NCBI RefSeq assembly: GCF_029873635.1
Contig: NC_080422.1
Coordinates: 10,509,764-10,573,763, forward strand
DNA: 64,000 nucleotides
Direction: 5' to 3'
From: Malania oleifera
Lineage: Eukaryota > Streptophyta > Magnoliopsida > Santalales > Ximeniaceae
Shown here: one piece after another, positions 9,251 to 60,417 of the stretch
Layout: every line of letters starts with the position of its first letter
Numbering within the stretch: the stretch's first letter is position 1
The notes under the pieces: model-generated
The model's database searches: none
What the model was told of the DNA's origin: nothing
Seen by the model: the letters and a program-made list of their open reading frames with translations, nothing else
Made by a program: the position numbers and the translations under genes

Positions 9251-9706
9251 CTCATAATATTCAGATTAGCATTTTCATTTTCCTCAATTGACAACTCATC
9301 CTCATTGGCTAATTCCTTGGGAATATAGGGTTGTTCTTCACCTCGAATCTTCCTCTTCATCCTCTTTTTCAATTGCAAAATTTCTAGTTGGGCATTGCTT
9401 AGCAAAGTTGCCTCTTTTGTGACATTTATAACACACATCATTCCCAGAATTTTGTTTTGAGGGCCTATTTATAGGTGCCTTTCCTTTGTCACTCGACCCA
9501 TGTTGGTTGTTGGACAGTGGGATTGCTACCTCTAGAAGTCACTCGACCTATGTTGGTGGGTCTAGTCTTCTCGTATGATGCGGCCTTTCTTGGGTAAGTA
9601 TCATTGGAAGTGTTCCCAAATTTTCTTCCCATTTGAACTTTACTCATTTGCTCATAGTCATGTGGCAAATTGAATGCATGCTCAAGTGAGTCAATATGAT
9701 GGGAAA
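9251..9706 (-). pseudogene. Chromovirus A gag C-terminal part with zinc knuckle
   Basis: Minus-strand reading gives the gag C-terminal segment HHIDSLEHAFNLPHDYEQM, then a zinc knuckle near 9440-9390 reading CYKCHKRGNFAKQC. This is the CX2CX4HX4C pattern with the His replaced by Asn. The upstream half of gag lies at 18737-19672; the 9-kb element inserted between them is flanked by ggaaa at 9702-9706 and 18732-18736. Confidence 0.75.
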
Positions 9707-11730: not shown

Positions 11731-12186
11731 GATATCTATATTATTATTATTATTATTATTATATCGTATATTTCTACAAATTATGTCAGTCAAAACATTA
11801 TTTTATTTATATGTACTTATTTACGTGTACAAACAGTGTGTATCCTGTTTATCCTACAAAATTCCATTTTGACTAGGCCGACCTCCACGGAGTGACTGAA
11901 TCACAATGGTCTCTAAGGACTCAATAAGACAAGGGATTTCTTAGGCATCAAACATGGAATCAAGGATCCTATAGAAAAACACATTTGTATTAATAATAAC
12001 TTAATGACCATTTTTATTATTTTATGTAACGCCCCAACCTAGGTCTATCAGGGAGCACTAAATCTCTCATCCTCCACCTGGACCAAACACCAGGGGGCAG
12101 CCTTATCAGACTAATGACTGGCCCCACAGACCAACACATGTCATTTTCAGTATGTTTTGTCCTCACTTACACACTTCCTAAGAAAA

Positions 12187-12297
12187 CTTCCCAAAAGGTC
12201 ACCCATCTCAAGATTACCCCAAGTTAAGCACGCTTAACCGTGAAGTTCTTATACGAAAGCTCCGAAAAGAAAGGTGCACCTTATTGATATAGGTAGT
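12187..12297 (-). other. 5S-rRNA-like domain in Cassandra LTR 1
   Basis: The complement contains the 5S internal promoter elements in order: a GGTTAAGCGTGCTTAAC box A region, then a TGAGATGGGTGACC box C region and a GGGAAG end. The remembered plant 5S has GTTAAGCGTGCTTGGGC and GGATGGGTGACCTCCTGGG. It is part of a retroelement LTR and diverged, so it is not a 5S gene. Confidence 0.85.
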
Positions 12298-12340
12298 AAC
12301 ATCTAATCCTTTTTAAGACTTTCTTCCACGGGGTATCACA

Positions 12341-12669
12341 TTCTCCCCCACTTACAGAACGCAACGTCCTCGTTGCGAACCCACATTTCGAAACCCAGGC
12401 GATGTGAATCTCATCACACTTCTGACCAGGTAATTGCTCTGATACCATTTGTAACAAACCCCCTTTCGAGTGTTGTCACTTTCCTTATGGGCCTTGCGCC
12501 TGTGGCAACAACGGGTACCTATCAGAGCACTCACTAAGATTGAGGCGTTACGTATCACTATCTCTCAATTCAGTAAGCCCTCGGGCAGAGAGTCTTACTT
12601 CGCCACAATCATTCATAAGCGAGAGTTCTCGAGGATCAGGGGTAACTACCCCTTTGCTCTGATACCATT
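12341..12669 (-). repeat. Cassandra internal region 1, with a second PBS-like block
   Basis: Starts with the PPT complement (ttctccccca) and ends with the PBS complement at 12655-12669. A second copy of the PBS complement plus LTR-like start (tgctctgataccatttgtaac) lies inside at about 12433-12453. Internal region 2 (12987-13316) has the same pattern, with the inner copy near 13080-13102. Confidence 0.75.
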
Positions 12670-12831
12670 TGTAACGCCCCAAACTGGATCTGTCAGGGAG
12701 CACTGAATCACTCATCCTCCACCTGGACTAGAAAACAAGGGGCAGGACTTATCAAACTAATTACTGGCCCCAGAGACCAACACATGCATTTTCAGTATGT
12801 TTTGTCCTCACTCACACACTTCCTGAGAAAA

Positions 12832-12942
12832 CTTCCCAGAAGGTCACTCATCCCAAGATTACTCCAAGCTAAGCACGCTTAACCGTGAAGTTCTTATACG
12901 AAGGCTCCCTAAAAGAAAGGTGCACCTTATTGATATGGGTAG
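12832..12942 (-). other. 5S-rRNA-like domain in Cassandra LTR 2
   Basis: Same arrangement as in LTR 1: complement has GGTTAAGCGTGCTTAGC, then GGGATGAGTGACCTTC and TGGGAAG. The A in GATGAGTGACC is a change within the box C-like segment that LTR 1 and LTR 3 do not share. Confidence 0.85.
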
Positions 12943-13479
12943 TAACATCTAATCCTTTTTAATATTTTCTTCCACGGGGTATCACATTCTCCCCCACATA
13001 TAGAATGCAACGTCGTCGTTGCGAGCCCACATTTCCAAACCCAGGCGATGTGAATCTCATCACACTTCCGACTAGGTAATTGCTCTGATACCATTTGTAA
13101 CGACCCCCCCTTTCGAGCGTTGTCACTTTCCTTATGGGCCTTACACTTGTGGCAACAACGGGTACCTATCAGAGCACTCACTGAGATTGAGGCGTTACGT
13201 ATTGTCGTCCCTCAATTCAGTAAGCCTCCGGGCGGAGAGTCTTATTTCGCCACAATCATTCATAAGCGAGAGTTCCCGAGAATCGGGGGTAACTACCCGT
13301 TTGCTCTGATACCATTTGTAACGCCCCAAATTGGGTCTGTCAGGGAGCACTAAATCTCTCATCCTCCACCTAGACTAGAAAACAAGGGGCAGGCCTTATC
13401 GGACTAATTACTGGCCCCACAGACCAACACATATCATTTTCAGTATGTTTTGTCCTCACTCGCACACTTCTTAAGAAAA

Positions 13480-13590
13480 CTTCCCAGAAGGTCACCCATC
13501 CCAAGATTACTCCAAGCTAAGCATGCTTAACCATGAAGTTATTATGGGAAGGCTCTCGAAAAGAAAGGTGCACCTTGTTGGTATGAGTAG
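13480..13590 (-). other. 5S-rRNA-like domain in Cassandra LTR 3
   Basis: Complement has GGTTAAGCATGCTTAGC and GGGATGGGTGACCTTC followed by TGGGAAG. The box A-like core has a G-to-A change against the other two copies. Confidence 0.85.
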
Positions 13591-13633
13591 TAACATCTAA
13601 TCCTTTTTAAATCTTTCTTCCACGAGGTATCAC

Positions 13634-13634
<1 letters not shown>

Positions 13635-13690
<56 letters not shown>
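13635..13690. repeat. (ATT)n microsatellite
   Basis: About 56 bp of ATT repeats next to the Cassandra array. The partner LTR has a shorter ATT tract at the same point (about 18674-18696), which marks the insertion site. Confidence 0.9.
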
Positions 13691-14051
13691 GTTTTAATCG
13701 TATATATATTTTTGGGGTCATTACATCCTCCCATCCTTATAAAAATTTCGTTCTCGAAATTTGTTAATTTAAGATAAGTACTGTATTTGTGCTCTTAGTT
13801 TGAAATATTTGGCTAAGTATTATTATAGGACCAATTTGAAAAAATACTTTGTTTAGGAGATTGAAGTGAGAATCGTTGGTCTAATAGGGAAAAACTCAGA
13901 AAATGTGGAAAATGATTGAATGATTTTATTTATTTATATATATGCATATTTATTTATACATATCTCATAAATTATAAATAAAAATAAAATAAAATAAAAT
14001 AACATAAAATAAAATAAAATCCGGTCCTTCTCCCTCATGTGTGTGCTCAAG

Positions 14052-14782
14052 TTAGAGCCTTAACTCAACATCAACATCTATTGAAGTTCTAGCGATGTCA
14101 CCGCTATTTGATTGGGTTCTTTCTTGGCGGTGTTGACCTCTTATAATGTCATCAGCTTGGGGTGGAAAAAGGGAGAGAACGCTCGTTTGTTTGGCAAGAG
14201 AAGAAGAGTTGCCCTCTTCCCCTTGTGGCCTTTGGTGGGGATGCTCGTAACGAACCATTAGTGGTTCTTACATGAGTCTCAACGCTTATTGGATCTCTTG
14301 GAAATGATGGAGTAGGCCAGCATTATCAGAAACCCTTAGTGTGGTGACTGCGATGTTACCATTGTAAGGGGTATGATTCATTGGTGTGATGTTAGTTGTA
14401 AGCTTCATAGACAGAATATTGCCAATAAGGATGAGGGTACAAGTTGTTGAGAAAATGGCGGGGGCACTACTCGGGGCAGCAGTGGCGGAGGAAATAAGAT
14501 GGATAATTGGTGGGGTAGTAGTTGAAATGGTGGCCTCTTCAATTGATTCCCGTCTACGCCTACAGTTCTCGAACCAAAGCATACATTCCTCGGCTCGATC
14601 AGACCATACTGTCGGAGTCATGCTGCAAGCAAGGTAGTCCACTCCACGGAGGGGAGTTCCCCTTCACTGCTGCGAAAGGCCTCCTCTGGAATCACCAGTT
14701 GTCCCTTGCTGGGTCTCCACCTTTGGGTTGGAGATCTAGTGCTGCTTTCAGCAACTTAGGGAGTTGGATTATTTGACAACAT
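14052..14782 (-). pseudogene. WUSCHEL-related homeobox (WOX) pseudogene captured in an LTR element
   Basis: In minus orientation, from the ATG at 14782, the translation has RW-x-P-x3-Q, FRS, PSVEW, then after a TGA stop LRQYGLIEPRNVCF. A one-base frameshift follows, then WFENCRRRRES. Spacing matches the WOX5/WOX7 homeodomain (RW to WFxN = 53 positions), including helix-3 W-F-x-N and the following R. Downstream in one frame is SVLSLFPPQ, like the WUS box TLxLFP, and the reading ends DVELRL and stop, like the C-terminal EAR-type repressor motif of WUS-clade proteins. About 240 codons span the copy. It is broken by an early TAA (codon 9), the TGA in the homeodomain (CGA-to-TGA would explain it), the frameshift and two TAA codons near 14286 and 14268. 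The homeodomain shows no intron. WOX proteins are plant transcription factors of stem-cell and organ-founder cells; this copy is not expected to make one. Confidence 0.75.
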
Positions 14783-14912
14783 TTTCAGTTAAATGAAACG
14801 AGTAATGAGACAATCAAAAGAAAAGTTAGGAAGAGCTAATCTCTGCAAACCGAAATGTGGTTGTTCAAGATGATAAAAAGTTGTGATACTTAGAGTTCGA
14901 GGAGGGCAGACC

Positions 14913-14922
14913 CTTTTTATAG
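14913..14922 (-). promoter_or_regulatory. TATA box-like motif upstream of the WOX copy
   Basis: The complement reads tataaaaagg about 130 bp upstream of the WOX ATG on the minus strand. It could be a captured promoter or a chance motif. Confidence 0.4.
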
Positions 14923-14936
14923 GAGAATGGCCTCAT

Positions 14937-15202
14937 GTCGTGTAAATCGAGAGAGAGCGATGTATGCCATGAGAATTGAGAGAGAGCGACTCGTGCCGCG
15001 AATATTGAGCACACAACATATTTTGCGAAAATCGAGGGAGAATGACGTGTATCGCGAGACTTGAGAGAGAGCGACGTGTACCGTGGATATTGAGCGCGCG
15101 ACGCATTTTGCAAAAATCGAGGTAGGGCAACGCGTGTCGCAAACGACGCGTTTTGCAAAAATCGAGGGAGGGCGACGTATGCCGTGAGCGACGCGTTTTT
15201 CC
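14937..15202. repeat. GC-rich tandem repeat (42-46 bp units) upstream of the WOX copy
   Basis: Units contain ttttgcaaaaatcgaggga, gcgacg and acgcg. Cores occur near 15022, 15106 and 15152, with a decayed copy near 15190 and more diverged copies to the left (aatcgagagagagcgatg). The block is clearly more CpG-rich than the surrounding AT-rich sequence and lies just upstream of the TATA-like motif. Any open frame through it is a by-product of the repeat. Confidence 0.7.
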
Positions 15203-15284
15203 GAATTCTCAGAATCAAAGTTTGGTTCATGTTTCTACATCTTTATTAATGCTTTAACTATAATTAATCTCACACTTAGATCAC

Positions 15285-15455
15285 CACTTGGGTGGGTGGC
15301 CTAATGGTAAGGAGCTAGTCATGTATTTGTGTGATCGCAGGTTCAAGTCCCCATTATGCCCAAGCGGTCTCATGTCTTGGCTTTACTTCAGGGGTAAGTG
15401 AGATAGTCGATGATTCCCACCCATGAGACTATTTTTTTATTTTTTTTATTTTTTA
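15285..15455 (+). mobile_element. tRNA-derived SINE
   Basis: A box A-like tggcctaatgg (15297-15307) is followed 33 bp later by a box B ggttcaagtcc (15340-15350), the spacing of a tRNA-type pol III promoter. A non-tRNA body follows, then a T/A-rich tail (about 15430-15460). It does not fold as a complete tRNA beyond the promoter part. TSDs were not identified, so the ends are approximate. Confidence 0.65.
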
Positions 15456-16330
15456 TTTATTATTAAGTTACTTTGAGCCACCTATGTACATTTTTGTATA
15501 AGGGGCTCTACTCTAATATATACTACCGTGGACAACCTTGGTCAGGGCTGGTTAATTTCCTTAATTATCTTGGAAGAAGAAGTCTACAATAATTGAATGA
15601 TGAACTTGAAATTTTTTTTTAAATCATTTTTTTGAATTCAATATAGTAACATTTAAATTGTATTTAATTCCTTATAAACCAATACAAAATTAAAATTAAA
15701 GATTTCGTTAAAATTTATATTCCTAAATTAAGCTTGAATATTTTAATGAGACCTGAATACGCAATGCAAAAATACATATTCATATTCAACTTGCACATGC
15801 AAAGGAATTTTGGGTAAATCCAGATTTCAGAATAAACCATTTGTTCATATCTATTTGTATGTGTAGCACTTCCAAACCCAGTAGGGTCTAATGTGCTTCT
15901 TTTTTATATTTTTAGTGAAAATAATAACAGCGAAAATAAATAAATCTCGGACATTATTATATTATTATATTTATATATTTGATTATGAATATGAAAATTT
16001 TAAATTATTAATGTATCTGATCTAACAATTAATTATGAATCATCAATATGGGTACATGTTTCTACAAACATAAATGACATATTTAAATTAATTAATGTGT
16101 TTTCAATAATACTACCATTTTTCTTAGAGAATATATGATTGTTACCTGTCCTTGAGAGCCTTCACGTTAATCTCATTTCCTCCAATGTTATTATCTTTAG
16201 GATCCATTCTTAAACAATGATCAAACGTTATTTTAAAATCATAAATCTATTGTTAACGTATAATAATATAACATAGTAAAAGAAATATCGTAAAATCTAT
16301 ATGCTAGAGTATGCAAGACCTATATCATAT
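15456..16330. other. Internal region of the 9-kb element, no features seen
   Basis: AT-rich sequence without coding motifs, between the SINE and the primer-binding site of the 9-kb element. Confidence 0.6.
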
Positions 16331-16344
16331 TCTTTGATACCAAT
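16331..16344 (-). other. Primer-binding site of the 9-kb element
   Basis: The complement attggtatcaaaga lies directly inside the right LTR. It resembles the initiator-tRNA-Met type PBS (tggtatcagagc) with changes. Confidence 0.7.
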
Positions 16345-18731
16345 TGTAAGGACCTGAAACTGAGCAAGTTCCTATATATAAATTTTTTAGTGAACACACA
16401 TAAATCTAAATTATTTTTATTACCAGAGCACTAATTAATTTTATTATAAATATATGTCTCAACTATTAAATTGAAAATTTCTAAAATTTTAAAATACACA
16501 AGCATATTCTAAATTGTATTGTGCTAAATTTTTATTCTACTCTACTCTTTCTACTCCCGCCGATGCACTTGATATGTCAGATTTTTGGTATACTCTTCAA
16601 ATAATCTAAAATGTAAAATAACGATTGGGGTGAGATGACGCTCAGTAAGTAAATAAGATTATTATTAGTGTATAGGCAAAATGAGCTTTCATAATATTAT
16701 ACTTTCATAAAATAATATTTAATACTATAACTTCAAAACAGTTTTTAAAATATAAGTGAATTGAAAATTTTCTACATAAAACTTTTATCATCAACTACAA
16801 TAGTAAAATTTTATAACAATATACTGTAATTTTAAATTAAACCTTTAAAACTATAACTATAATATTTAATTATATACATATATACTTTTCCTTACACATT
16901 TCCTTTAGATCATCATTTAGGCACAAAAATGCCAATATTCACATAAACATATATTTTTCCTTCAAATCTTCAATAGCTCAATACACGTAATTAAATATGT
17001 ATATACATATACTGTAAAAACTCACTCTTAGGCCAAATAGCCGTAAATCATGTTTCTATTAGTCGTGAGTCATGTTTACCCCCATGATTGGGTTGTGTGG
17101 TCCGAAGACTGGACTTAACTGGCTGGCCGGTCAAATTAAATTAACATACATAATCATTAAGTGAGATTTTCCCTATTAAACTCTGGTCCGACCCAAGTGA
17201 GCACTTAGGTGAAATTCACTACCATATAAAACCACTTTGTAAACAGTGTGGGTGCACTCTGATCCGTTTAAACTTTAAGTTGCGGTACCGAGTATTCATA
17301 ATTTCTGTATCATCTGAGTCATAAGGGGTTTTGAAAACATCTTATTATACAATTAAAATAATATCACAAAAATGTCATTTTTACTTATATTTTCGTGAAA
17401 TACGCAACATAAAAAAATAAACTCATGTCATCTTTACTCATATTTTCGTGAAATATGTAGCGTAGAAATAAACTCATGCTACATAATTTTCGTGTTAAAA
17501 ATATTTTCTTGAATATAAATTAATTCTGTAAAATACTTGAGGGGTTTAGAATATTTTTTAACTCAAAAATTAATGTAAGTATATTAAAAATAAATTTCGT
17601 ATAATTAAATATGCATAAAAATAAACTCGGGAAAATTTTATGAAAATAACTAACATAATCAAAATTTACTTACAAATAAACTGGAGCATAAATTTTAAAT
17701 AAAAATATAACATAATCAAATTTACTTACTTTTTACTTAACCTTGTGAGACGATCACAACGAATATCTCTAAAAAATGAGATCAGAAAGAGTGGATGAAT
17801 GAAAATTTTAATTATAAAAAAATTCTCCCTCCACCAATAATTCTTTCACTCACTAATCCTTCTTTTCCTTTCAAAATTTTTATGTGAAAAATGAAGGTTG
17901 AGAACTTCCTATTTATAAGAAAATTTTGCGAAAGAAAATGAAATTTGTAAAAGTGTAGGGAGATAGATGAAATTATAATTTTTTTAAAAAAATAAAGGAA
18001 TGGGCATGGGATGAGAGGTATTGGATGGGGATGAGGGTACATATGGGGAAAATGGGAGTGCTTGCTGACACTCCCATTTAATTAATTTTTAATTAATTTA
18101 CTCAGTTAATTAATTAATTAATTCATAATTTTTTTTGAAATCATTATTATTATCATTGTTATTATTTTTACGCTATGTTTCGTATATATATATTAAAAAA
18201 AATTAAGTTCGAATTTCGAAAACTCATATGGACCCCACATGGTCTTGTGGGTCCCACACAACTTCGAGACCTAAGCGGGTCCTACGCAACTCCAATAGTT
18301 CTCACACGATTTTATGGGTCCTACATAGCTTTGGGACTCATGTGGGATCCCACATGGCTTCGAGACTCATGTGGGCCCACACGGTCTTGTGGGCCCCGCA
18401 TAGGATACTTATATTATTATTATTTTATCATATATTTTTACAAATTATGTTAGTCAAAACATTATTTTATGTATATGTACTTATTTACATGTACAAACAG
18501 TGTCTACCCTATTTATCTTATGAAATTTCATTTTGACCAGACCGACCTTTAGGGAGCGACTGAGTCGCAATGGTCTCTAAGCACTCACTAAGACAAGGTC
18601 TTTCTTAGGCATCAAACATGGAATCAAGGATCCTACAGAAAAACACATCTGTATTGATATTAAGTTAATGACCATTATTATTATTATTATTATTATGCTT
18701 TAATCGTATATATATTTCTGGGGTCATTAAA
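16345..18731 (-). repeat. Right (5') LTR of the 9-kb element
   Basis: 2,387 bp, starting tgtaaggacctg and ending ggggtcattaaa (partner ends attaca, so the last CA has mutated). Highly similar along its length to 9707-13725 without the Cassandra insert. A TSD copy, ggaaa, follows at 18732-18736. Confidence 0.85.
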
Positions 18732-18736
18732 GGAAA

Positions 18737-19801: not shown

Positions 19802-20858
19802 AGATGTAGGACGGGAATGGTTGACCTACCCCTACGGTTCAACCCTCACACAAGCACATACACTAAAAACTCTTTCAATTAAGAATTCAATTAACTAAAT
19901 TAAACACCATAAATTATGCTATATTTCACATATTGTTGGATTTTGAAAAGGTGTATGATGTTGTCCAGAAAATAAGTCCCAAGTATTACTGATCAAGGAA
20001 TCAAGCTTTATGCGTAAAGATGTTAATTTCAATGTCAAGATTACAAGTTCTAAGTTAACAAACTAATATTCATACAATTGATATTAGTTAGCAAGTGGCA
20101 AAGTTGAAATCTAAGGGTTCAAATGTGCTATTCAAATATGGAATTTCAGGCTTCAAGTAAAGGTTTACACAATATTAAGTAAGGGTTCAAACAAGTACTG
20201 AATTTACCACGAAATTGGTTGGATGACTTAACGTTATTCAACACAAGTTAGACCACGTCGTGAGTCCTTCGTATAAGTTTTGAATCAACAAGATGAATGC
20301 AGCAATGGAATGTAGGGAAAATGGCCGTGTGGGTGTATAATGGTGGTGGTCGTGTGGGTGTTGGATGGGGGAGGTCGTGTGGGTGAGAGGAAGGAGATGG
20401 CTATGGTGTTGCTGGATAGAGTGGTCTCTCACCACTTGATCTCTGGAGAGAACTCCGTAGCCTCAGACTACACAATCAATAGATCGAAGAAAGCTAAACA
20501 AGCATCGACAATGGAAATTCATTCAATATTCAAACATAAGCTGCTCTTAGAGTTCTTACAATAAAAGATATAAAATCTAGCATGGGGGGACAAGACATTA
20601 ACTAGCTAACAGTTCCCACACAAGCATGGGAGACAAAGATATTTAATACTAACACTAAATCCTAACACATTAAACACTCTCACAACTTACGAAGCCCATA
20701 TATAAGCTGAATTGTCTTACATTATCACAAATTAAATATGAGACATATGCCAAAGGGAGGCCCAAATCCATGTGGGGCCTATGGAGTCGTGTGGAGAGCC
20801 CACAAGCTGTGTGGGGCCCACATGGGTCTTGAGGTGGATCTTGCTTCAATACTTCACT

Positions 20859-22094
20859 TGTAACGACCTCAATTTCCTTAACATAAAATGTAATATAATG
20901 AATGGAAAAGTCAACCCGAACCCGTAGGTAACGGGGACACCTGTCAATCACAACGAAAACCTAAACAGCAGTAAAATAAAATCTCAATCATTCAACCATG
21001 AAACATAATACCAAAGTTATTTACATTCCCAAAATACTGTATTTATTTACAATCTTCCAAAAGTCAAAATAACACTAGGATTGTACAATAAAAATCTCCT
21101 AATCCTAATTCAATGCTTACCCTTCTAGTAAGGAAGCTAAACCCACTCAACGACTGCCCTGGCCCGCCGGACCCTTTGGGTTTCCTGAAAATAATTTAAT
21201 ATTTGGGGGTGAGACACTTCTCAGTAAAGGAAAATAAACTAAATACAGCTATGTGGCAACATGAATATTTAAGGCACTTGTACGTATACAGTACATTTCA
21301 TAACTCTGTAAACTTTTATTATATCATACTGGATAATCATATAATTTCATATATGTTAATAAATCATAATATACATAAAACATCTGTTATAACTATAATA
21401 TTGAAAATATACCCAGGATGAATAGCTAGCTGGTGTCATGTATATCCCCCCCATGACGGGTTGTGCAGCCCGAAGGCAACCCCCAACAATGGTTAGCCGA
21501 CCACTGCCGAGTCAAATATGTTTGTAAGGACGATGAGCCTGCCACACTCTGGTCCAGACTGTCAGGTGGATGTCCACACTCTACTAAAAGTCACATCGAC
21601 TATCCATCTCCCACCCCCTCGTGGGGTGGTTAGCACTAATCTGATCATAAATATCTGATTTATAAGCTAGGGTACCAAGCCCCTGAACTGAACTAAACTA
21701 ACATCTTGGTTGTGATAACATATAATACATGATCATACATAACATCATTACGGCCTCGTGTCGAATATATCGTAATTACGGCCTCGTGCCGAATATATCA
21801 TAATTACGGCCTCGTGCCGAATACATCATAATTACGACCTCGTGCCAAATATATCATAAATATGGCCTCGTGCCGAATACATCATAATTACGGCCTCGTT
21901 CCGAAATCATATCAGGTATATACATTCTGAAAATAAATCGATTATCATACATTCGTCAAAATCATCGTAACATAACATATCTTTTCATAATACCTGATAA
22001 CATACTTTGCTCATAAAATCTTTCATATCGTAATACGTTCACATAAAATAATATTCATGCCACACATGCGTTCTAAAATCGTAATTCTCTGGCA

Positions 22095-51581: not shown

Positions 51582-52189
51582 TACGAACACAGGGTTTTGT
51601 CGACGAAGGCTTTAAAGATTTCGCCAACGAACACAGGGCTTCATCGACGAGAAAATACTGAGAGTGGTTCTGAGGCAGCCTGACTTAGTTATAGAAATTG
51701 ACGTATGCATGAAAATATTGATGATTAATACTGGGGATTTTGAGTTTCAGGATATTGAGTAGGAAATCCTACGGGGGTAAGGATAAGATTTTAGGGGGCT
51801 TTCTCAATAGCCAAGTAAGGGAGTAAACTAAAGCAGTTCTTTTCCATGCAAACTATTATTGATTATGAGTAGTTTTATTTTCAGAAGAACATATGATGTA
51901 TTCGTTTATTATGAATGAAATGTACGATTAGGAAAATACTGCTATGATGCTTAAAAAGTATATGTATGTATGAGATGTCAAAAAATCATGATTTTAAAAT
52001 ATGAAGTATAACTTTTAATAGAGCATGTGTGGCATGAATATTATTTTACGTGAAATGAGATAAAATATGAATGCTTTTACGAGTAAAACACATTTTCAGG
52101 TATTTTGGAAAGATGGGTTATGTTATATTGAGTTGACGAATATATGATAAATGAGTCATTTTCAAATGTAAATACCTGAAATGTATTTG

Positions 52190-52390
52190 GCGCGAGGCCA
52201 CATTTATGTTATCGGCACGAGACCGTATTTATATGATTTTGGCATGAGGTCATGTATTTATGCTATCGGCACGAGATCGTATTGATATTATTGGCGCGAG
52301 GCCACATTTACTATGATTTTGGCACGAGGCCATACGTATGATTTCGGCGCGAGGCCGTATCTATGTTTTCGGCACAAAGTCGTAATGATG
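52190..52390. repeat. Tandem repeat ggcacgaggccgtatt, 5' LTR of H
   Basis: Seven to eight units of 25-30 bp alternating ggcgcgaggccaca and cggcacgagaccgta with short AT spacers. The homologous array in the 3' LTR is at 59330-59540. Confidence 0.9.
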
Positions 52391-53586
52391 TTATGTATGA
52401 TCATGTATTATATGTTATCACAACTAGGATGTTAGTTTAGTTCAGACCAGGAGCTTGGTACCGTAGCTATGGGTAGATCATATTTGGCACGATGTTGTAT
52501 TAGTGCTAACCATTCCACGAAGGGATGGGAGATGGATAGTCGATGTGGCTTTCAGTAGAGTGTGGACATCCACCTGGCAGTCCGGACCAGGGTGTGGCGA
52601 GCCCATCATACTTACAGACATATTTGATTCGGCAGTGGTAGGCCAGCCATTGTCGGGTCCCGCCTTCGGACTGCACAACCCATCATGGGGGGTAATACAT
52701 GACATTTGCTAGTTATTCATCCTGGGTATATTTCAGTATTACGAGTTATAACAGATGTTTATGTATGTTATGATTTATTAACGAATATGAAAATACATGA
52801 TTATCCAGCATGATATTATGATTATTTCCAGAGTTATGAAATGTATTGTATATGTATAAGCACTTTAAATATTCATGTTATCACACAACTGTATTTAGTT
52901 TACTTTCCCTTACTGAGAAGTGTCTCACCCCCAACATAAATATATTTTTTAGGAAACCCAGAGAGACCGGCGGGTCAGGGCCGTCGTTGAGTGATTGGTG
53001 CTTCCCTACTAGAAAGGTAAGCCCTGAGCTAGGACTAGGAGATTTTTGTTGCATAGTCCTAGTGTTATTTTGACTTTTTGGAGATTGTACAAATGAACAG
53101 TATATTGATGTTAAAAGAAAGCTTTGGTATTATGTTTTATGGATGGATGTATGGATTTTTATGTTTACTGCTATTAGGTTTTTCGCTGTGTATGACAGGA
53201 GTCCCCGTTGGCCACAGGTTCGGGTTGACCATTTATTTATTATGTTGTATTTTATTTAGGGACATTATATTTGGTATCAAAGCCCAGGATACTAGGTTCT
53301 TTAGACTTTAGAATGCAACAGTAATAATATCAGAGTATAAGATAAGAAGATTTGAGGTCTGGTTTTATAGTCTAGATGCAGGACTTCCGTGATGGTTTGT
53401 ATGATTTTCCTGGGGTGACGATTTCAAGAAATTCATTGTAAACTATCGTCAAGTTGGGTATCTAGGTTGCAAGATTGAACCTTGAATTGAGATTAAGAGA
53501 GATGAGTTAATTAGGAGGATATATTATATAAGTTGAGTGATACACGTAGAGAAAGAGGTTTTGAGTTAAGTTACCTGTTTTTCAGG

Positions 53587-58312: not shown

Positions 58313-60417
58313 TGTAACGACCCGAATTTTTAAATGAAATTTAAATAATAAAGAAAGGAAAATTTGAAAAAGGGAAAAGAAGGGCAGCTGCCAGGCTTCG
58401 TCGACGAAACCCTGTTTTCGTCAACGAAGGCTTTAAAGATTTTGTGGACGAACACAGGGCTTCGTCAACGAGAAAATACCGAAAGGGATTCTGAGGCAGC
58501 CTAAATTTCGCCGACGAATACAGGGTCTCATCAATGAAATTTGTGAAGGACTCATCGACGAAGGTCGGGCTCGTCGACGAATCTCGTTACTTTATAAATA
58601 TGGAAATTCGGTAAATATCTCATTTTTTAAGAAGCTTCTCTCTCTCCTCTTCGGCTCTCTCACTCTCTCTCTTTGATTTTGGGCTGGTTTTACGCCGAAT
58701 CGAAGATCTGAGGCTACCACAATGCTCCTGGCGAAGTTCCCTACAAGTTTGCTGGAGCGGATTGTCAGGAAAACGAAGTTGGAAATCATCCCAAAGTTGA
58801 GGTAAGGCTTTTTAAGCCAAATTAGACTTTATGGTAGTTATAGAAATTGACGTACACATGAAAATACTGATGATTAATACTGGAAATTTTGAGTTTCAGG
58901 ATATTGAGTAGGAAATCCTACGGGGGTCAGGCTAAGATTTTAGGGGGCTTTCTCAGTAGCCAAGTAAGGGAGTAAACTAAAGCAGTTCTTTTCCATGCAA
59001 ACTATTATTGATTATGAGTAGTTTTATTTTCAGAAGAACATATGATGTATTCGTTTATTATGAATGAAATGTACGATTGGGAAAATACTGCTATGATGCT
59101 TAAAAAGTATATGTATGTATAAGATGTCAAAAAATCATGATTTTAAAATATGAAGTATGACTTTTAATAGAGCATGTGTGGCATAAATATTATTTTACGT
59201 GAAATGAGATAAAATATGAATGCTTTTACGAGTAAAACACATTTTCAGGTATTTGGAAAGATGGGCTATGTTATATTGAGTTGACGAATATATGATAAAT
59301 GAGTCATTTTCAAATGTATATACCTGATATGTATTTGGCACGAGGCCATATTTATGTTATCGGCACGAGGCCGTATTTATATGATTTTGGCACGAGGCCA
59401 TGTATTTATGCTATCGGCACGAGGCCGTATTGATATTATTGGCGCGAGGCCATATTTACTATGATTTCGGCACGAGGCCATACGTATGATTTCGGCGCGA
59501 GGCCGTATCTATGTTTTCGGCACGAGGCTATAATGATGTTATGTATGATCATGTATTATATGTTATCACAACTAGGATGTTAGTTTAGTTTAGACCAGGA
59601 GCTCGGTACCATAGCTATGGATAGATCAGATTTGGCTCGAGGCCGTATTAGTGCTAACCATTCCACGAGGGGATGGAAGATGGATAGTCGATGTGGCTTT
59701 CAGTAGAGTGTGGACGTCTACCTGGCAGTCCGGACCAGGGTGTGGCGGGCCCATCGTACTTACAGACATATTTGATTCGGCAGTGGTAGGCCAGCCATTG
59801 TCGGGTCCTGCCTTCGGACTGTATAACCCATCATGGGGGGTAGTACATGACATTAGCTAGCTATTCATCCTGGGTATATTTCAGTATTACGAGTTATAAC
59901 AGATGTTTATGTATGTTATGATTTATTAACGAATATGAAAATACATGATTATCCAGCATGATATTATGATTATTTCCAGAGTTATGAAATGTACTGTATA
60001 TGTATAAGTACTTTAAATATTCATGTTGTCACATAGCTGTATTTAGTTTACTTTCCCTTACTGAGAAGTGTCTCACCCCCAACATTAATATATTTTTCAA
60101 GAAACCTAGAGAGACCGGCGGGTCAGGGCCACCGTTGAGTGATTGGTGCTTCCCTACTAAAAGGGTAAGCCCTGAGTTAGGATTAGGAGATTTTTGTTGC
60201 ATAGTCCTAGTGTTATTTTGACTTTTTGGAGATTGTACATATGAACAGTATATTGATGTTAATAGAAAGCTCTGGTATTATGTTTTATGGATGGATGTAT
60301 GGATTTTTATGTTTACTGCTGCTAGGTTTTCCGCTGTGTATGACAGGAGTCCCCATTACCCACGGGTTCGAGTTGACCATTTATTTATTATGTTGTATTT
60401 TATTGAGGGACGTTACA
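58313..60417 (+). repeat. 3' LTR of chromovirus H
   Basis: 2,105 bp, tgtaacgacccg to gggacgttaca. Contains TCGTCGACGAA palindromes (58397-58590), a TATA-like tttataaatatgg (58591-58603) followed by a CT-rich leader, the ggcacgaggcc array (59330-59540), a gactgtataacccatcat block (about 59817) and ctgagaagtgtctcaccccc (about 60061-60080). It is the reference against which the damaged 5' LTR is read. Confidence 0.92.

Follow-up and report, generated by a model that had tools for sequence, protein, structure and literature searches.

A WUSCHEL-type homeobox gene carried by a multi-copy LTR retrotransposon family of Malania oleifera

The window analysed here, a stretch of 64,000 nucleotides of Malania oleifera DNA, contains an LTR retrotransposon with a block that is, by its sequence, the decayed gene for a WUSCHEL (WUS)-type homeodomain protein. 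The block is related to WUS, and the element belongs to a multi-copy family in which the start and stop of this gene are conserved among the copies examined. We consider it likely that an LTR family without recognised gag-pol took up a WUS-lineage gene once, long ago, and has kept it as a gene of its own, the protein perhaps aiding the spread of the family. The features of the window element are as follows (LTRs are named in element orientation).

9702..9706, no strand: left target site duplication (TSD) GGAAA
9707..13725, minus: 3' LTR, enlarged by a nested TRIM-like array
12025..13636, minus: TRIM-like tandem array inside the 3' LTR, with three repeats of about 320 bp plus two internal segments
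13726..13738, minus: polypurine tract (PPT) AAGGATGGGAGGA, adjoining the 3' LTR
14052..14782, minus: WUS-derived ORF, 243 codons and a stop in the family; four internal stops and one frameshift in the window copy
14055..14066, minus: C-terminal ELRL (EAR-like), before the stop
14157..14180, minus: WUS-box-like VLSLFPPQ
14549..14725, minus: homeodomain, codons 20-78 (PF00046 in open copies)
14913..14922, minus: TATA box CTATAAAAAG, upstream of the ORF
14935..15200, minus: ACGCGT-bearing tandem repeats that precede the TATA box
15627..16294, minus: leader adjoining the primer binding site
16331..16342, minus: primer binding site (PBS) TGGTATCAAAGA
16345..18731, minus: 5' LTR
18732..18736, no strand: right TSD GGAAA
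18748..19026, minus: gag (PF03732) of an outer gypsy element

The structural hallmarks of an LTR retrotransposon are present in the window, namely an LTR pair, GGAAA on both sides, a PBS and a PPT, as the initial annotation had stated when it placed a WUS-clade gene inside such an element. The WUS ORF reads in the element's own sense. The PBS is presumably of the initiator-Met type, with two differences from the usual form. The outer end of the 5' LTR is AA, where the partner LTR has CA. The insertion lies within, and disrupts, the gag of an outer gypsy element. Also in agreement with the initial annotation, which called the element pol-less, the ORFs listed for 13726-16345, two of which were scanned with Pfam, include none that was recognised as gag-pol. 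Rfam and tRNA scans of the window gave no match.

The two LTRs are 89.8% identical once the TRIM-like array is left out (K2P 0.112 over 2332 ungapped positions), and 86.7% identical by blastn with gaps counted. Substitution rates of 7e-9 and 2.5e-9 would give the element an age of about 8 and about 22 million years, respectively. At the rate of 1.3e-8 per site and year that has been used for Malania oleifera (PMC6377399), the K2P distance corresponds to about 4.3 million years.

Several other features were seen in and around the element. The internal segments of the TRIM-like array are bordered by the PBS-like TGATACCATTTGTAACG. A stretch inside the element at 15285-15470, on the plus strand, has a tRNA-like head, with A- and B-box-like stretches recognised by eye, and a T-rich tail, and is perhaps a SINE; ARAGORN and Rfam reported nothing there. 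Between copies, the leader at 15627-16294 is conserved to about the same degree as the ORF; it is perhaps a packaging leader. A repeat pair at 774-1594 and 19803-20627, 19 kb apart, may represent the LTRs of the enclosing outer gypsy element. Further away, direct repeats at 51686-52403 and 58835-59551 (7.15 kb apart, 94-97% identical) perhaps belong to a younger LTR element, and have inverted relatives at 21030-21770.

The reading of the minus strand as a WOX protein, made at the outset from the letters of the window, is borne out. In a frameshift-aware alignment, the block scores 90 against the WUS homeodomain, whereas 40 shuffled homeodomains score 25 +/- 4 with a maximum of 34. A phmmer search of all PDB chains returned STENOFOLIA (3.5e-6) and WUSCHEL (6.4e-6), the third and last match having an E value of 1.7; beyond these two WOX structures, no solved structure matches convincingly. 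Stops at codon 9, at codon 55 and at two later codons interrupt the frame of the window copy, along with a frameshift near 14577, and the window piece falls under the gathering cut-off of the Pfam homeodomain (E 0.038), as does P0001, an annotated Malania protein (LOC131144967). The PF00046 check is positive in the open copies: in all four, the homeodomain passes the cut-off, with E values from 2.7e-5 to 2.2e-9.

The initial annotation also described a WUS-box-like LSLFPPQ and a C-terminal DVELRL. The C-terminal piece, which includes VLSLFPPQ, was scored against 118 WUS proteins: its best score is 60 and its mean 37.7, compared with a null of 25.1 and a null maximum of 47. ELRL or DLRL is present in all four open copies, but the P of LFP is missing in three of them. 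The middle of the block is shuffle-like when compared with WUS proteins (28.6 vs 26.4 for the null).

Alignment with the WUS protein of Malania (P0111) gives 26 identical residues out of 72 for the window block and 21 out of 52 for P0001. The maximum BLOSUM scores with the best WUS proteins are 120 for the window and 122 for P0001; against Arabidopsis WUS they are 105 and 113, against Malania WUS 120 and 110, and against STENOFOLIA both lie within 102-106. Of the other WOX proteins compared, WOX1 and WOX2 also lie within 102-106 and the remainder at 73-97. In a tree, the window block and P0001 are joined at 99/98, on a stem of 2.76 changes per site, and the homeodomain is not placeable. The fold of P0001 from its single sequence was uninformative (pLDDT 34). 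With eight WUS proteins aligned, residues 61-110 reach pLDDT 90-94, and the top seven matches of this fold in Foldseek are WUS homeodomain chains, with a best E value of only 4e-3 and an alignment that biases the result in that direction.

The homeodomain had been assigned WOX5/7 spacing. The spacing is in fact that of WUS: the distance from W to the end of WFQN is 52 residues in the block, and also in all 118 of the WUS records that fit the pattern (118 of 120 protein records). The same span in WOX5 is 51 residues. WOX5/7 is rejected as donor on spacing and scores, WOX5 representing the pair in the comparison. The WUS homeodomain is one residue longer than that of other WOX proteins, the extra residue being specific to WUS and a tyrosine in angiosperm WUS (PMC3701499). 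In the phmmer alignments, the block runs without a gap against WUS over this part and has a one-residue gap against STENOFOLIA. The tyrosine that marks WUS is absent from the block at this site. The element ORF resembles WUS transcription factors in having a homeodomain of WUS length, a WUS-box-like motif and a C-terminal ELRL in the same order. It differs from them in helix 3, which is mostly WFEN(C/R)RR rather than WFQNHKAR, and in its low identity, the missing tyrosine, the dissimilar middle and its carriage by a repeat family.

The lack of an intron in the homeodomain was initially taken to indicate capture through RNA. The homeodomain lies in exon 1 of WUS in rice, where a homeodomain deletion has been located in that exon (PMC4938654), and in Petunia, where the sequenced partial exon 1 contains it (PMC5127159); an intronless homeodomain alone is therefore no proof. 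The compact layout from homeodomain to WUS box is probably better evidence of a spliced origin. Two other routes were rejected. A LINE-type processed pseudogene does not fit, since there is no poly(A) past the stop in the sense orientation and the run found there is T-rich. Capture by a Pack-MULE or another TIR element was likewise rejected, the inverted repeats flanking the block being A/T-rich runs save for short ones such as I24 (25 of 26 listed). WOX-derived small RNAs, as proposed in the initial annotation, are unlikely to be aimed at host WUS, judging from the sequences. At most 18 consecutive nt agree with any back-translation of Malania WUS, against 14-16 nt in five shuffles; a 21-nt window with one mismatch would still be compatible with this bound, and likewise in the shuffles.

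The captured copy is not a one-off. A genome search with the block for other carriers gave the window and 39 further near-full-length copies, 84-88% identical and most of them over all 731 bases. The 40 scored copies, drawn from 680 candidates, are spread over 12 contigs, and the block thus exists in at least 40 copies including the window. They were chosen and ranked by block similarity, which favours long, gap-poor blocks. The sample consists of 20 copies with long flanks, 19 with short flanks, and the window.

LTR sequence of the same family is found in all 20 long-flank stretches, and on both sides of the block in 15. An LTR pair longer than 1500 bp is present in 11 of 21 elements (the 20 long stretches and the window), with identities of 80.7-89.5% and a median of 86.7%. 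In these 11, the part upstream of the ORF measures 1.1-2.9 kb. Downstream there are 0.27-0.38 kb in ten, the 2.0 kb of the window being inflated by the TRIM-like array, and in these ten elements there is little internal room for gag-pol. A scripted search found a 5-base TSD with TG..CA ends in two of 21 elements, a count that says little because the same script missed the TSD of the window.

The ORF has promoter-like sequence in front of it. In the window, the TATA box lies 139 bases before the ATG in the sense direction, after the tandem ACGCGT repeats. TATAAA occurs between -190 and -90 in 31 of the 40 copies, compared with 13% of 100-base windows taken at random. Of the 48 ACGCGT sites that precede the ORF in 21 elements, 47 fall between -700 and -150, these sites not being independent because the repeats are tandem. 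Self-regulation through WUS motifs was considered and rejected, as TTAATGG and TAATGG show no enrichment; the 3' LTR stretch is depleted in them (3 TTAATGG vs 17 expected, and 17 TAATGG vs 44 expected).

The ATG is kept in 34 of the 40 copies and the stop at codon 244 in 39, and 24 copies have no indel. Intact copies, whose existence had been left as a question, amount to four that are open from the ATG to the stop at codon 244; the window copy and most others are broken, with a mean of 1.75 internal stops per copy. When one open copy is used as reference, the three thirds of the ORF are free of indels in 33, 37 and 28 of 39 copies, compared with nine of 39 for an upstream flank of equal length and none of 39 for a downstream one, a contrast that may stem in part from the picking of copies by block similarity. 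When 21 copies are read in frame 0, stops recur at codon 55 (in five) and at codon 224 (in five), perhaps by change of CGA to TGA at methylated CpG or by shared descent.

The strongest rival to retention of the gene is that a master element picked up a WUS-like gene a single time, just ahead of its burst, and multiplied it as a passenger of no use, the divergence of the gene from WUS having arisen earlier in a fast-evolving host paralog. We regard this as unlikely, but there are several observations in its favour, among them the overlapping ranges of the control frames given below. The copies form a star-like pattern, nearest relatives being about 86-92% alike, and carry the internal stops just noted. 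Diversity is nearly equal at the three codon positions (0.130, 0.136 and 0.144), a weak signal. A test of rare against shared substitutions gives p 0.0026 in frame; once CpG-context sites are removed this becomes 0.14, and a control frame then gives 0.0019.

Taken across all pairs, dN/dS amounts to 0.55 in frame and to 0.61 and 0.66 in the other frames, which indicates mostly decay after insertion. Against a passenger stand the comparisons between subfamilies, which were defined by clustering the very block sequences under test. At the deepest split, of five copies from the main group, dN/dS net of within-group change is 0.31 (bootstrap 0.13-0.70; one of 200 bootstraps at or above 1), with 12 of the 29 main-group copies drawn at random. 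Both control frames are higher, at 1.14 (0.55-6.22) and 0.67 (0.28-2.76), with ranges that overlap the in-frame range. The second split gives 0.51 (0.21-1.51), the controls being 1.40 and 0.68. When all copies are used, the in-frame values of five comparisons are 0.24-0.42, and those of the control frames 0.71-1.32 and 0.54-0.73. The sequences lend moderate support to coding constraint between subfamilies while the family evolved, the deepest split speaking for it more clearly than the second. The ORF is poor in indels beside indel-rich flanks, with the caveat on copy choice given above, and the TATA box is retained. No host paralog of the kind required, besides P0001, appeared in protein searches, one of which covered the best 120 of 2255 matches. 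In simulations of a neutral path over the divergence from Malania WUS to the P0001 homeodomain, 168 stop-free codons were left in four of 300 runs.

P0001 itself suggests another reading, in which a host gene that is still alive, perhaps LOC131144967, keeps the blocks of different elements similar by being captured again and again or through gene conversion. The homeodomain of P0001 resembles the window block at 30 of 48 residues and its tail at 99 of 121, and the contig that carries it has the same length, 156,926,036 bases, as the one with WUS. However, P0001 ends before the WUS box, its first 59 residues have no match in the window, and it looks like another copy; the blocks moreover accompany one LTR family throughout the long stretches. 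We consider this reading very improbable. There is next to no prospect that a host pseudogene merely lies between LTRs of separate insertions, since, full of nested elements as the region is, the matching TSD, PBS and PPT and the same arrangement at other sites refute it. Chance resemblance without WOX kinship can be discarded with similar firmness, although the window piece and P0001 score below the Pfam cut-off, given the shuffle test, the PDB matches and the Pfam pass of the open copies.

On the reading that we prefer, a long-lived LTR family without recognised gag or pol, most likely in Malania oleifera, would have taken up a WUS-lineage homeobox gene in a single ancient event, in a compact and probably spliced form. 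The family would have retained it with its own TATA promoter, the 243-codon ORF, the homeodomain, and the WUS-box-like and C-terminal ELRL motifs. Because no gag-pol is recognised, we propose that transcription of the elements starts in the LTR and that the gag-pol of another element copies them in trans. The TATA box, homeodomain and C-terminal motifs suggest a separate transcript from the internal promoter, which may encode a nuclear, DNA-binding, repressor-like protein. Individual copies, the window copy included, would decay following insertion. Through an effect on transcription in meristem or reproductive cells, the protein may help the family to spread, a possibility to which we give clearly less than an even chance. 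That it acts in stem cells is a guess based on the protein family concerned.

LARD-type non-autonomous LTR elements have long LTRs and no gag-pol, and are described as non-coding. The Malania family shares the long LTRs and the lack of recognised gag-pol, but has an ORF. The nearest comparable case that we have read is the AlkB m6A demethylase ORF in Gypsy elements of the orchid Phalaenopsis (PMC9289625), where a host-type regulatory domain has likewise become fixed in a multi-copy plant LTR family. Those elements are 25 kb long and were found via their reverse transcriptase, whereas no gag-pol is recognised in the Malania family. The same reverse-transcriptase-marker screen reported 15 unusual domains, of which one is a B3 transcription-factor domain, and 'homeo' is absent from its main text (PMC9289625). 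Bs1 of maize and other LTR-captured genes also place host gene sequence within an LTR element, Bs1 having segments of three host genes, for a membrane ATPase, a xylan endohydrolase and a glucanase (PMC13317346, PMC3726574). The Malania element differs from Bs1 in carrying one transcription-factor frame whose start and stop are kept in many copies. Retand elements have antisense ORFs with TRP28, and thus also an extra ORF, a possible DNA-binding protein and internal tandem repeats; these ORFs differ in being antisense, beside gag-pol and of an unrelated domain (PMC11963269). Among the literature matches listed, judged by title and the start of the abstract, there was no report of an LTR element carrying a WUS-type homeobox gene.

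It is already known that plant LTR elements can have extra host-like ORFs. Perhaps, although less likely than not, a family without copying machinery of its own has made WUS its selected protein, which would let it be active in the stem cells that found the germline, or act on them. Screens based on reverse transcriptase would miss a gag-pol-less family of this kind, and the hypothesis is directly testable within one species. If true, a family that lacks gag-pol and persists thanks to a developmental regulator would represent a new use of the plant stem-cell programme by a parasite.
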